NCBI GenBank assembly: GCA_003484585.1
Contig: DNBZ01000321.1
Span: 1-7,474 of the forward strand
DNA length: 7,474 nucleotides
DNA from: Bacteroidota bacterium
Lineage (GTDB): Bacteria; Bacteroidota; Bacteroidia; NS11-12g; UBA9320
Direction of reading: 5' to 3'
The notes under the pieces were generated by a model. That model saw nothing but the letters and a program-made list of their open reading frames with translations, ran no database searches and was not told the DNA's origin. The position numbers were made by a program, and so were the translations under genes. This document shows positions 1-3,690 of this stretch, one piece after another. The number at the start of each line of letters is the position of its first letter. The stretch's first letter is position 1.

Positions 1-246
1 GGTGGAGTAGGATGGGGCGAGGTAATGAATGGCGGATTTGGGATGCTGCTAGACGGTACTGATGAAGCAGATGCTCGCTTAAAAAATATGCTTCTCTATG
101 ATGTGAATAATGGAATAGCTAGACGTAGTTGGGCTAGAAATGAGAACGCACAGTTTGCTATAAAACGTGAAATGGAACGCAACGATAAACTAAAGGTTAC
201 ACTGGCTAATAGTGTGGAGGATGGATTATTGGAGGGGTTGTTTTAA
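1..246 (+). CDS. 3' end of an unidentified protein (partial, enters from left edge)
   Basis: The reading frame is open from base 1 to a TAA stop at 244-246, giving 81 visible residues; the true start lies outside the window. I do not recognise the family. The visible part opens Gly-rich (GGVGWGEVMNGGFGM), then a DGTDEAD stretch, then a charged segment, and ends in the acidic/hydrophobic tail ANSVEDGLLEGLF. No signal peptide or membrane segment is visible. The last ~22 codons recur in degenerate form at 838-894 and 1478-1545, which suggests that a family of paralogous tails once stood here. With a SUKH-like immunity gene about 650 bp downstream, it could be the C-terminal domain of a secreted toxin, but nothing in the visible residues proves that. 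The internal ATG at 25 is probably not the start, because the frame continues upstream without a stop. Confidence 0.55.
   Translation, partial: GGVGWGEVMNGGFGMLLDGTDEADARLKNMLLYDVNNGIARRSWARNENAQFAIKREMERNDKLKVTLANSVEDGLLEGLF
178..246 (+). repeat. Tail repeat, copy 1 (in-frame C-terminus of the left-edge gene)
   Basis: This segment encodes approximately ERNDKLKVTLANSVEDGLL plus EGLF and is the only copy that ends a long open frame. Bases 204-240 match 1509-1545 at 30 of 37 positions by hand alignment. The encoded pattern (V/I)T(L/M)(A/G)N(S/N)(V/I)(E/D)D-LLE is shared with the copies at 838-894 and 1478-1545. Conservation at the protein level suggests descent from related coding 3' ends rather than a non-coding repeat. 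Confidence 0.7.
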
Positions 247-248
247 TT

Positions 249-310
249 TTTTTGTAGGTCCGTGCCGGTTTTTGTAGGTCCGTGCCTCTGAGGCACGGAC
301 CTACAAAAAC
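249..310. repeat. REP-like element: tandem 20-bp unit plus perfect palindrome
   Basis: Two 20-bp units lie head to tail at 249-268 and 269-288. Both begin TTTTTGTAGGTCCGTGCC, and they match at 18 of 20 positions. An inverted copy follows at 290-310, so 268-288 and 290-310 form a perfect 21-bp palindrome around a single central base (289). Each direct unit carries GTAG (254-257 and 274-277), the tetranucleotide typically found at the foot of REP hairpins recognised by RAYT transposases. The element starts 3 bp after the stop of the upstream gene and ends 15 bp before the RAYT start codon, the usual REP/RAYT arrangement. No T-tract follows the stem on either strand, so it is not a standard intrinsic terminator, though it could still stabilise mRNA ends. 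Confidence 0.88.
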
Positions 311-325
311 AACCATATCAATTAT

Positions 326-850
326 ATGTCCAAATACCAAAAACGTCAATACCGATTGCCAGGGTTTAATTATGCATCTAACGATGCCTATTTTGTGACG
401 ATCAATACGACGGATAGGGTTCATTTTTTTGGTGAGATCAAAGAAGGTAAAATGTTACTGTCTGAAATGGGAGAGGTGGTCGTAAATGAATTAGAAATGG
501 CTAGTATTCACAAAAAGAATATTCTCATATCTGACTACGTAGTAATGCCAGACCATGTGCATATTATAGTAGGTTTACAAAACAAAGATCTATCTAAGCG
601 ACCAGAGTTAATCAAAAAAAATCCAGCTATTTCTGGAGAGATACATCCCTTGCAGAAGGGATCTTTGCCCTCATTCGTTAATCATTTTAAAGGCCGTGTG
701 ACCCGTGAAATACGTGAAAAAATTCACGCGGATTTTGGTTGGCAACCCAAATACCATGACAGAATAATACGGGACAGTATAGAGTACGAACGTATTGCCA
801 AATACATAGCGGATAATGTGGCAAAGTGGGATGGGGAATCTAGAGAATAA
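326..850 (+). CDS. REP-associated tyrosine transposase (RAYT, Y1_Tnp/HUH family)
   Basis: This 174-aa protein is a single-strand DNA endonuclease of the IS200/IS605-like Y1 family that is thought to bind, cut and spread REP hairpins. The N-terminus (YRLPGFNYASNDAYFVTINT) is the typical RAYT first strand. The metal-binding HUH motif is H77-V-H79 in VVMPDHVHIIVGL. Near the C-terminus WQPKYHDRIIRD is followed by YIADNVAKW; aligned from memory with E. coli TnpA-REP, Y160 is the catalytic tyrosine. The usual YIxxNP reads YIADNV here. All hallmarks are present in one uninterrupted frame, so the enzyme appears intact. The start at 326 fits the family N-terminus; the leader is A-rich with no clear Shine-Dalgarno. 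A REP-like palindrome stands immediately upstream. The final codons overlap a degenerate copy of the left-edge gene's tail, so the gene may have inserted into or beside that sequence. Confidence 0.93.
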   Translation: MSKYQKRQYRLPGFNYASNDAYFVTINTTDRVHFFGEIKEGKMLLSEMGEVVVNELEMASIHKKNILISDYVVMPDHVHIIVGLQNKDLSKRPELIKKNPAISGEIHPLQKGSLPSFVNHFKGRVTREIREKIHADFGWQPKYHDRIIRDSIEYERIAKYIADNVAKWDGESRE

Positions 851-894
851 CGCTAGGGAATAATGTAGATGATTTGTTGGAAGGGGTTGGTTTA
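838..894 (+). repeat. Tail repeat, copy 2 (coding remnant after RAYT)
   Basis: Read in the frame starting at 847, this segment encodes ITLGNNVDDLLEGVGL, which aligns with VTLANSVEDGLLEGLF at the end of the left-edge gene, with one codon missing. It shares a 16-nt identical block (868-883) with copy 3 (1525-1540). The segment overlaps the last RAYT codons at its 5' end and the stop codon of the convergent SUKH-like gene at its 3' end. It has no start codon or long open frame of its own, so I read it as a fragment of a lost paralogous gene end. Confidence 0.6.
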
Positions 895-1446
895 GTTGTT
901 CTTAGTTTCCTCAAAAAGAATACTTATTTCAGTTTGCCAGTAGTTGCCTTCTGACATTGCTTCAAGGTCAATTGATTCTAATGTATTTTTAAGAGTATTA
1001 ACATTTTCTAGTTTGTATAGAGAATCAAGATATCCATCTGGACCGTATTTTTTCTGTGCTTCTGCTACAAATTCAGTTATGGCATTTAAGCAATAACCTA
1101 GGTGAATTATTGAAGAATTCATAAATTCCTCTTCAAAATCAAATTCGTGATCTAAGATTTTAATCTTATATTTTTCAAATGTATCGATTACAATTTCATT
1201 TCCATTTCCATCAGAACCTATACTAATATATTTAGAGAATTTTGGTTCTAAAAAATCAAACCAGTCAGTCAAAGGGTTTAGTCCTTCATATTGAATATTG
1301 TTATTTTTATTAAACGATAGAAATGGTGCAGAGCTTTCAGGTAATCCATTTGTGGTTAGGAACTCTCTTGTCTTCTCATTCAATTCTAATCCTTGTAAAA
1401 CCTCAGGTGAATATTTAATTATATCGAGTTCTTCATGCCATTTCAT
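892..1446 (-). CDS. SUKH (SMI1/KNR4)-superfamily immunity-like protein
   Basis: This 184-aa soluble protein has no signal peptide or membrane segment. Its pattern fits the SUKH superfamily: FLTTNGLPESSAPFLSF near residues 29-45, ISIGSDGNGNEIVID at 74-88, then LDHEFDFEEEFMNSSI at 98-113 followed by hydrophobic LGYCL. In the SUKH families these correspond to the GLP motif, the central 'iG.d..gn.i.iD' strands and the late 'NsS...fl.cl' helix; the SUKH-4 branch looks closest. Such proteins usually neutralise nuclease or other effectors of polymorphic toxin systems. It is acidic, as is common for immunity proteins. It is transcribed against its neighbours and lies between two direct copies of the left-edge gene's tail, with no intact toxin gene visible beside it. 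An orphan immunity gene is the likeliest reading. Assignment is by motif reading only. Confidence 0.72.
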   Translation of the reverse strand: MKWHEELDIIKYSPEVLQGLELNEKTREFLTTNGLPESSAPFLSFNKNNNIQYEGLNPLTDWFDFLEPKFSKYISIGSDGNGNEIVIDTFEKYKIKILDHEFDFEEEFMNSSIIHLGYCLNAITEFVAEAQKKYGPDGYLDSLYKLENVNTLKNTLESIDLEAMSEGNYWQTEISILFEETKNN

Positions 1447-1451
1447 TCAAG

Positions 1452-1459
1452 CAAAAATA
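1452..1459 (-). promoter_or_regulatory. Candidate -7 box for the SUKH-like gene
   Basis: The minus strand reads TATTTTTG, an exact match to the Bacteroidota -7 consensus TAnnTTTG. Only 5 nt (CTTGA) separate it from the ATG, so a start site at the usual distance would give an almost leaderless transcript. No good -33 TTG lies at the ideal distance: a TTG at 1484-1486 is about 24 nt away, and TTTCC lies nearer. Confidence 0.45.
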
Positions 1460-1477
1460 GAGAATTTTGTAAAACAG

Positions 1478-1545
1478 GAAACGCAACTATAAATGGGGGA
1501 ATTACAATGGCTAATAGTATCGAGGATGATTTGTTGGAAGAGTTG
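1478..1545 (+). repeat. Tail repeat, copy 3, inside a short open frame
   Basis: This segment encodes GNATINGGITMANSIEDDLL plus EEL, aligning with the end of the left-edge gene (30 of 37 bases identical over 1509-1545 versus 204-240). The frame stays open downstream to a TGA at 1618-1620, with possible starts at 1435 and 1506. The residues after the repeat (ILTGFTSSLRSETSVYK) resemble nothing I know and lack the stop found in copy 1. It is most easily explained as a gene-end fragment. A real small protein starting at 1506 (37 aa) cannot be excluded but has no supporting signal. Confidence 0.6.
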
Positions 1546-1682
1546 ATTTTGACAGGGTTTACCTCTTCTTTGAGAAGCGAAACTTCTGTATACAAAATTG
1601 GCCTGATAATAGTATACTGATGATTCATATCTTAACAAAGTTAGGAGGTTAACTCTAAGGTGTGAAAATTTTTATAAATAAA

Positions 1683-1745: not shown

Positions 1746-2345
1746 TTATTTCTTTCTATTCAATTCCATATTGATATTGATTAAAACATCATCACCTACC
1801 ACAGATGTAGCAGCCCAGCTTCCAGAGCCTACACCAAAGGAGGTTCGGTCTAGTTTGGTTTTGATAGCAATACCAAGCAACTCTGTATTTTTCATAAATG
1901 GGTGATCCATTTTACCTTTTACCTCTATAGGGAAAACTACTTTTTTTGTAACGTCTCTTATGGTAAGATCTCCTAGAACTTTAAGCTCGCCATCTTTTTT
2001 CAAGAATTTGTCTGACTTGAATGTAATGTTTGGGAATTGCTTTGCATCAAAAAAATCTCCAGACTGTAGGTGTTTGTCTCTTTTAGCATCTTGTGTATTG
2101 ATACTACTTACTGGTATGGTAAATGACACAGAGCTGCCTTCCAAGTTATTCTCATCAAAACTGATAGTGCCACTGTAGTCAGTGAAATTACCGGTTACGG
2201 CAGAGAAGAAATGATTGATGGAAAAATTGATACCTGTATGTGTTTTATCGATTTTCCAAGAAAGAGCGGTAGCTGCGTATACCGTTGCTGAGGCAAAAAG
2301 TGCTACTAGAGCAAATGCTTTTAAAAATGTTGTTTTGTTATTCAT
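1746..2345 (-). CDS. YceI-family periplasmic lipid-binding-like protein
   Basis: This 199-aa protein begins with a classical signal peptide: positive MNNKTTFLK, hydrophobic AFALVALFASATVYA, cleavage probably after A24. The mature part is a full YceI domain (PF04264 type): the opening WKIDKTHTGINFSINHFFSAVTG, the strand GTISFDENN, and SVSFTIPVSSINTQDAKRDKHLQSGDFFDAKQFPNITFKS. It ends LDRTSFGVGSGSWAATSVVGDDVLININMEL. YceI proteins are periplasmic lipocalin-like beta-barrels that bind polyisoprenoid or amide lipids in known structures; the physiological role is usually unclear. Length is typical (~190-200 aa). The gene stands alone: the dnaJ terminator lies upstream on the same strand and its own terminator follows. 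A weak -7-like TATTTTTC occurs at 2385-2392 without a good -33. Confidence 0.93.
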   Translation of the reverse strand: MNNKTTFLKAFALVALFASATVYAATALSWKIDKTHTGINFSINHFFSAVTGNFTDYSGTISFDENNLEGSSVSFTIPVSSINTQDAKRDKHLQSGDFFDAKQFPNITFKSDKFLKKDGELKVLGDLTIRDVTKKVVFPIEVKGKMDHPFMKNTELLGIAIKTKLDRTSFGVGSGSWAATSVVGDDVLININMELNRKK

Positions 2346-2497: not shown

Positions 2498-2533
2498 TAA
2501 AAAAAGCCGACTAAGAAGTCGGCTAGTTTTTTT
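2498..2533 (-). terminator. Strong terminator after dnaJ
   Basis: AGCCGACT (2505-2512) and AGTCGGCT (2517-2524) form a perfect 8-bp stem with the loop AAGA. It has an A-tract on one side and a T-tract on the other, so it could work in both directions. On the minus strand it lies about 23 nt past the dnaJ stop and ends in a run of seven or more T, closing the grpE-dnaJ unit before yceI. Confidence 0.92.
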
Positions 2534-2547
2534 GTTTTCTGATTCTA

Positions 2548-3690
2548 TTAATTAAAGAAGTCTTTCATCTTGTCAAAGAATCCTCTCTCTTTACTCGGAT
2601 CTGGAGTGAAATTTTCTGCGTCTAGCAATTGTTTCATAATTGCTTTTTCTTCAGTGCTGAGTTTTTTAGGTGTATATACATTTACGTAGATCAGTTGGTC
2701 TCCAGGACCGTATCCATTTACGTCTGGTATGCCTTTGCCTCTTAGTCTGAGTACCTTTCCACTGTGGGTGCCAGCCTCTATCTTTATACGTGCTTTCCCA
2801 GTTACTGTAGGTACCTCTATATCTGCTCCCAGAGCAGCTTGAGGGAAACTAATATGTAGATTAAAGATAATATTATTTCCATCTCGCTCTAGGCTTTCGT
2901 GTTTGGCTTCTTCTACTAGAACTATCAAGTCGCCTGCTACACCACCTGGCATTTCATTTCCTTTGCCACGTACATTGAGCTGCATACCGTCTGCTACTCC
3001 TGCAGGTATGTTGATGGTGGTAGTTACCTCTTCGGTTATTAAACCCATTCCATCTGCTCCTGGAGGAACATTCTTTATCTTCTTGCCCATTCCTTGGCAA
3101 GTAGGACAGGGGCTTGCTGTCTGCATTTGCCCTAAAAAGGTATTTTGTACTCTAGTTACTTGACCTTGTCCGCCGCAGGTACCACAAGTGTCAAAAGTGA
3201 CCCCTTTAGCAACTACCTTTTTCTTGTACTTTATCTTCTTTTCTACGCCGTTGGTTACATCTTCTAGGTTTAGCTTCAGTTTTATTCGAATATTAGAGCC
3301 TACTGCCTGTCTGCTTCCTCCACCACGATTTCCGCCACCAAAGAAGCTTTCGAAGGGACTTCCGCCGCTTCTTCCGCCTCCTCCGCCACCGCCAAAGATG
3401 TCGCCGAAGTGACTGAATATGTCATCCATATTCATACCTCCTCCTCCGCTAAAACCTCCTTGACCGTCTACTCCTGCGTGACCATATTGGTCATACCGTT
3501 GTTTCTTTTCAGCATTACTTAAAACTTCGTAGGCTCCTGCGGCTTCTTTGAATTTGTCTTCAGCTTCCTTATTGTCAGGATTCTTATCCGGGTGAAACTG
3601 TATCGCTTTTTTACGATATGCTTTTTTTATTTCTTCGGCTGTAGCACCTTTTGCTACGCCTAGTATGTCGTAAAAATCTCTTTTTGCCAT
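2548..3690 (-). CDS. dnaJ: Chaperone DnaJ (Hsp40), reduced zinc-finger form
   Basis: This 380-aa co-chaperone stimulates DnaK ATPase and delivers unfolded clients. The J-domain spans about residues 1-70, with HPD at 33-35. A Gly/Phe-rich linker (74-130) contains [20 protein letters not shown]. The zinc region shows only two CxxCxGxG motifs, CGTCGGQG (C169, C172) and CPTCQGMG (C195, C198), where E. coli DnaJ has four. By spacing these match motifs 2 and 3 (zinc centre II); motifs 1 and 4 (centre I) are replaced by [13 protein letters not shown] and [13 protein letters not shown]. The C-terminal client-binding domains are complete ([36 protein letters not shown]) and the end is [10 protein letters not shown]. 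The ATG overlaps the grpE stop as TAATG, indicating translational coupling. I recall the two-motif form as common in flavobacteria, so it is probably lineage-typical rather than decay. Confidence 0.97.

Follow-up and report, generated by a model that had tools for sequence, protein, structure and literature searches.

Integrase-type islands that enter the 3' ends of genes leave a displaced gene tail beyond the insert, the gene end itself being restored by an element-borne copy, as with icd and e14. IS200/IS605 elements, which share the Y1 transposase family with the genes considered here, do not generate larger target site duplications according to one account (PMC2817692). In REP/BIME clusters the flanking DNA is reported to be reiterated (PMC3733652, PMC2817692) and the 3' ends of rayt genes can be taken into BIMEs (PMC2817692). 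RAYT genes themselves are presented in one account (PMC8049555) as genes that are inherited vertically, have not been seen on plasmids and do not copy themselves; the RAYT literature consulted invokes vertical inheritance or horizontal transfer for their spread and gives no route.

The locus analyzed here lies in a 7,474-nt stretch of Bacteroidota DNA (the window) and consists of a RAYT-like gene and a SUKH-4 gene, with a degraded copy of the end of the neighboring hutU gene after each of them. As in REPtrons (TnpA-REP), the RAYT-type genes in this study encode a Y1_Tnp domain in about 174-210 aa and have a REP-like hairpin beside them, but the loci of interest differ in their long direct target duplication. 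Compared with IS200/IS605 elements, copies of 33-103 nt flank the gene, and the repeated unit, hereafter X, is present twice in one locus (L394) and once in a relative (G586). Unlike REP/BIME clusters, these loci hold whole genes between copies of a neighboring gene's end, and their displaced tails recall integrase islands, but no integrase was recognized and the inserts comprise one or two genes. We propose, with a probability of roughly one half, that the two extra tails were left by insertion of the SUKH-4 gene and then of the RAYT-like gene at the hutU end, each duplicating its target, and that the resulting X-gene-X scar recurs as an insertion by-product.

Titles and abstract openings on RAYTs with target site duplications or direct repeats, a search outside which most subscription journals fall, contained no description of such a scar, and full-text literature on the reconstitution of gene ends by islands returned no match with all terms. 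Similar scars could help explain how RAYT genes move, and a reproducible insertion scar would provide a sequence-only test of the route by which they reach new loci and genomes. The locus also carries a warning: where short coding repeats occur beside an immunity gene, they may be remains of a housekeeping gene rather than part of a toxin module.

The hutU end and its worn copies

The window opens within hutU (1..246, forward strand), the gene for urocanate hydratase, of which the contig start leaves only the 3' part (Pfam Urocanase_C, E 2.4e-18, residues 1-55). Positions 1-119 are identical to the end of another contig of the same genome (G000:C4), where more of hutU is found, and represent an assembly overlap. 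The source genome is 70% complete in 376 contigs, and the layout is known from the assembly alone. The original prediction described three degenerate copies of one gene's coding tail, and these are real: the live hutU end (tail 1, 197..246), a worn copy (tail 2, 846..897) and a worn copy with indels (tail 3, 1455..1549), all on the forward strand, in the order tail 1-RAYT-tail 2-SUKH-tail 3. The left-hand gene is now identified as hutU, and neither of the two worn copies is preceded by a gene body.

The stretch 1502-1549 matches tail 1 at 81% identity over 48 nt, and a gapped alignment extends this third copy to about 1455. Copy 2 is weaker, with a strict core at 859-894 and a visible start at about 846. 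Both copies outscore all 2000 shuffles; under laxer scoring copy 2 reaches 55, where the shuffles peak at 59 and have their 99th percentile at 46, which makes it the weakest of the three tails. Copies 2 and 3 have an exact 16-mer in common, and no further tail copy was found in 1560-2550 or in a coarse two-strand scan of the remaining window from position 250. Differences from tail 1 had been described as falling mostly at third codon positions, which holds for copy 2 (7 of 12) and fails for copy 3 (5 of 15). The hutU tails are 76-78% alike mutually (n = 3), and each is at most 73% like the tails of relatives.

As predicted, the SUKH-4 gene (892..1446, reverse strand; 184 aa, 29.9% G+C; Pfam SUKH-4, E 5.1e-11, 43.4 bits against a cut-off of 25.5) lies exactly between copies 2 and 3 in opposite orientation, its stop codon overlapping the end of copy 2. 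Its presence had suggested a polymorphic-toxin cassette, or a functional C-terminal tag beside an immunity gene, a reading to which we now attach almost no credence. The tail-bearing gene encodes a metabolic enzyme, copies 2 and 3 lack an upstream gene body, and no toxin gene was recognized in the ORFs scanned, nor one adjoining the SUKH-4 gene. Orthologues of hutU within the genus and beyond have related C-termini, so the tail motif is the normal hutU end and no special tag; a tail motif linked to SUKH genes was rejected on the same grounds. What survives of the distinct cassette layout once envisaged is a repeat-bounded arrangement, X-gene-X, which in other genomes also encloses some genes of RAYT type and a handful of further small genes.

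Between tails 1 and 2 lies the RAYT-like Y1 transposase gene (326..850, forward strand; 174 aa; Pfam Y1_Tnp, 34.9 bits against a cut-off of 23). A perfect 21-nt inverted repeat (268-310, with arms at 268-288 and 290-310 that are 100% identical) ends 15 bp before this ORF and, with an extra half at 249-266, makes up a GTAG-containing REP-like hairpin (249..310), the REP hairpin beside the gene. An exact 13-mer of the hairpin occurs only at the hutU locus in the 70%-complete source genome, with no dispersed REP copies, and we term the gene RAYT-like for this reason. Its protein shows by eye the motifs DHVH, WQ and YIADNV; the family rows in PMC6006769 read HUH, WQ and YIxNNP-like, and the last differs. 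None of the 18 same-genus relatives has a match to this gene, and a RAYT tblastn search against plasmids matched 3 of 72,556 records. The source genome also contains a second, short RAYT fragment (G000:C142:2098-2202).

Farther along, a YceI gene (1746..2345, reverse strand; Pfam YceI, E 9.5e-46) with no recognizable tail copy after it lies between hutU and dnaJ (2548..3690, reverse strand), beyond which come grpE, a thioredoxin-like gene and murA, dnaJ and these last three being named from their translations. The same-genus sample comprises 18 genomes, 13 of them with a hutU match. The convergent neighbor of hutU is dnaJ in seven of the 13 (G006, G008, G010, G011, G012, G016 and G017), separated by anything from a slight overlap to 121 bp in the five loci measured; the remaining six have no dnaJ match within the retrieved stretch, and the two of these that were inspected (L038, L042) have another gene after hutU. 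In L039 and L041 a terminator-like hairpin begins 11-12 bp past the hutU stop, directly after the gene, and its counterpart in the window (2503..2532) begins beyond three extra genes. Judged from this gene order, the RAYT-like, SUKH-4 and YceI genes lie between hutU and what is probably its old terminator-like hairpin. No SUKH gene was found within the retrieved hutU stretches of the same-genus relatives.

Under the proposed sequence of insertions, the SUKH-4 gene would have entered first, because its copy lies farther out, and the RAYT-like gene second. Each insertion would duplicate roughly 40-100 bp of the hutU end, and the copy joined to hutU would retain the stop codon, leaving hutU intact while the displaced tail decays. 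The Y1 (HUH) nuclease would act on single-stranded target DNA, and joining or repair would then produce the second copy of the target. A displaced tail would also be expected of integrase-type island remnants for which the hutU 3' end served as attachment site and the integrase was later lost, and the restoration of icd offers a precedent. We nonetheless hold this origin to be very improbable, since no integrase was recognized among the partly scanned window ORFs, the space between the tails holds no sizeable, identified ORF other than the RAYT-like and SUKH ones, and inserts elsewhere hold little besides one RAYT ORF.

Gene-end copies and close repeats at RAYT-type loci

RAYT-type loci were drawn from 58 relatives, 395 genomes of the phylum and 391 genomes of the class as best matches to two query proteins, and therefore constitute a non-random sample. 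Tails of 120 and 150 nt were used in two surveys. We dropped L152 (a position artefact), fragment matches (L132, L135, L137, L141-L145) and repeat retrievals of loci already counted; L133 and L139, two pieces of one gene, were both counted, and RAYT matches from the sister-genome comparisons of empty sites were left outside the survey.

Tails of genes facing the RAYT gene were copied beyond it in 7 of 170 cases (148 loci) at a score of at least 50, and the same test gave 0 of 96 for control ORFs and 0 of 170 for a reverse-complement null at a score of at least 35. A further 57 loci provided 62 tails, of which 1 was copied at a score of at least 50 and 2 at 40 or more. Heads of facing genes reached a score of at least 50 in 7 of 120 cases, but the reverse-complement null also did so in 3 of 120; in the further loci (n = 48) one head did so and two scored at least 40. 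Given this null and the several repeat arrays among the heads, we place no weight on heads as a class. The tail cases involve a beta-CASP metallo-hydrolase gene (L138), a cytidylyltransferase-like gene read as coaD (L233), an ABC ATPase (L260), a tRNA_SAD protein (L264), a gene with no assignment (L230), lipA (L185), a type I restriction specificity gene (L415) and a doubtful ORF (L404). In L260, about 540 bp of other sequence separates the RAYT gene from the copy, and its genus offers no second genome in which to seek an empty site.

The background for these counts consists of 1094 ORF ends at 120 loci; 40 stretches of 20 kb, taken from genomes of the RAYT survey, supplied 610 of these ends. 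It contains copied tails in 4 cases at a score of at least 50 and in 5 at 40 or more. After exclusion by eye of a repeat array (L261) and, in the background, of two further repeats (L108, L346) and a tandem paralogue (L319), 8 of 232 RAYT tails compare with 2 of 1094 background tails (Fisher, p = 2.6e-5); with nothing dropped the figures are 9 of 232 and 5 of 1094 (p = 1.2e-4). The two background cases judged genuine have a REP-like sequence (L063) and a Y1_Tnp gene (L347) between the copies. L063 is also, among 81 hutU loci, the one other locus with a clear second hutU tail (63 nt, 84%), the REP-like hairpin lying in the spacer.

These background cases bear on a different origin of the scars, in which slippage would have duplicated a gene end and its REP in tandem and genes would have landed in the spacer afterwards. 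Such a product may be seen at L065:9797-10080, where a 142-bp tandem duplication (97%) includes REP-like sequence along with the final 29 nt of a gene; this tail comes from an earlier survey of 550 tails and not from the background of 1094. In that background, however, no plain tail-tail tandem occurs without an element, both genuine cases holding one, and we regard prior slippage as improbable.

A test independent of gene calls compared the 300 bp on either side for non-palindromic direct repeats with a score of at least 40. Such close repeats flank 15 of 205 RAYT-type loci, or 15 of 207 when L374 and L377, first left out and later found negative, are included; among control ORFs the count is 3 of 277 (p = 4e-4 for 15 of 205). 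Since most of the control ORFs are stable genes, the recent insertion of any gene may account for part of the excess. About six of the 15 look REP-, array- or terminator-like by eye (L198, L217, L235, L255, L388, L396), and five involve gene ends (L230, L264, L394, L403, L415). Most RAYT loci have no such repeat. The window's own pair scores 33 and falls outside the 15, and L138, which like some others entered through a partial match, was missed for that reason. One control match (L311:3767-4495) is an HNH gene with homing-endonuclease-associated repeats and a direct repeat on either side.

Empty sites, stepwise arrays and divergence of the copies

In L394 the RAYT gene is bracketed by two copies of a 42-nt X that spans the pntB start, and a pntA-type gene lies beyond (pntA-X-RAYT-X-pntB). 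In the relative G586 the two flank alignments overlap on a single 43-bp stretch, that is, one X, and one X against two is the pattern that insertion with target duplication would predict. A second empty site is provided by lipA, which in G451 is directly joined to the sequence that in G105 comes after the displaced tail. G459 has lipA-HicB-HicA and the following sequence with no RAYT gene, and G456 has a HicB-like start after lipA; the tail copy of G459 falls below the scan threshold, yet the region aligns through it. The lipA copies thus flank HicBA, the RAYT gene having come later, and the RAYT gene as sole cause of the duplication at lipA was rejected.

Genome G627, a sister of G578, has a RAYT gene followed by X, an ORF6N gene and X, an arrangement that resembles the two-step array of the window, with no X found before the RAYT gene. 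L352 (67 nt, 97%) had been considered as an empty-site case and was discarded, as the sister G627 also has the RAYT gene. In the 11 cases compared, inserts measure about 0.5-0.75 kb and show by eye no common end motif.

Taken with the surveys, these comparisons make it likely that the X-gene-X scar, with X of about 30-150 bp, is an insertion by-product, found at a minority of RAYT-type genes, at gene ends or junctions, in other genomes of the phylum. The same scar at SUKH, HicBA and ORF6N genes suggests a route open to other genes as well as to the RAYT gene.

The shared layout of the HicBA, SUKH and ORF6N inserts would also be expected if the hutU end of a related species had recombined, together with its cargo, into the resident hutU end by homologous recombination, so that donor and resident tails flank a cargo in which the RAYT gene is a passenger. 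The divergence of the copies bears on this alternative. Over 13 alignments the copies differ at 41, 25 and 71 sites in codon positions 1, 2 and 3, an uneven distribution (p = 6e-6), and in L394, with G586 used to polarize the differences, three changes, all at third positions, fall in the copy that is not joined to pntB. This third-position excess may mean that the copies diverged before they were joined, which would favor such a capture, but selection on the live copy alone explains part of it. At L138, moreover, 117 of 120 homologues have V or I at a position where the copy departs, which favors the decay of a local duplicate; of the same 120, the live tail is the nearer sequence for 62 and the copy for 22. 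Capture also leaves the link with Y1/REP elements unexplained; we judge it less likely than insertion, but a serious rival to it.

Insertion with target duplication, extended beyond hutU, would imply that RAYT genes, although described as resident and immobile, do move, by near-bare insertion that duplicates 30-150 bp of target and leaves gene ends undamaged. Small genes for immunity or toxin-antitoxin functions would arrive by the same route, so that X-gene-X-gene-X arrays would build up at housekeeping genes. We advance this general form tentatively, with more doubt than confidence.

The RAYT-type genes surveyed vary in organization. GTAG-type hairpins lie within the RAYT ORFs of L260 (near 1750), L264 (near 1745) and L185 (near 1765), as PMC6006769 describes for one RAYT subclass. 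In genome G065, at least three RAYT-type genes or pieces stand in tandem (L168:888-2542).
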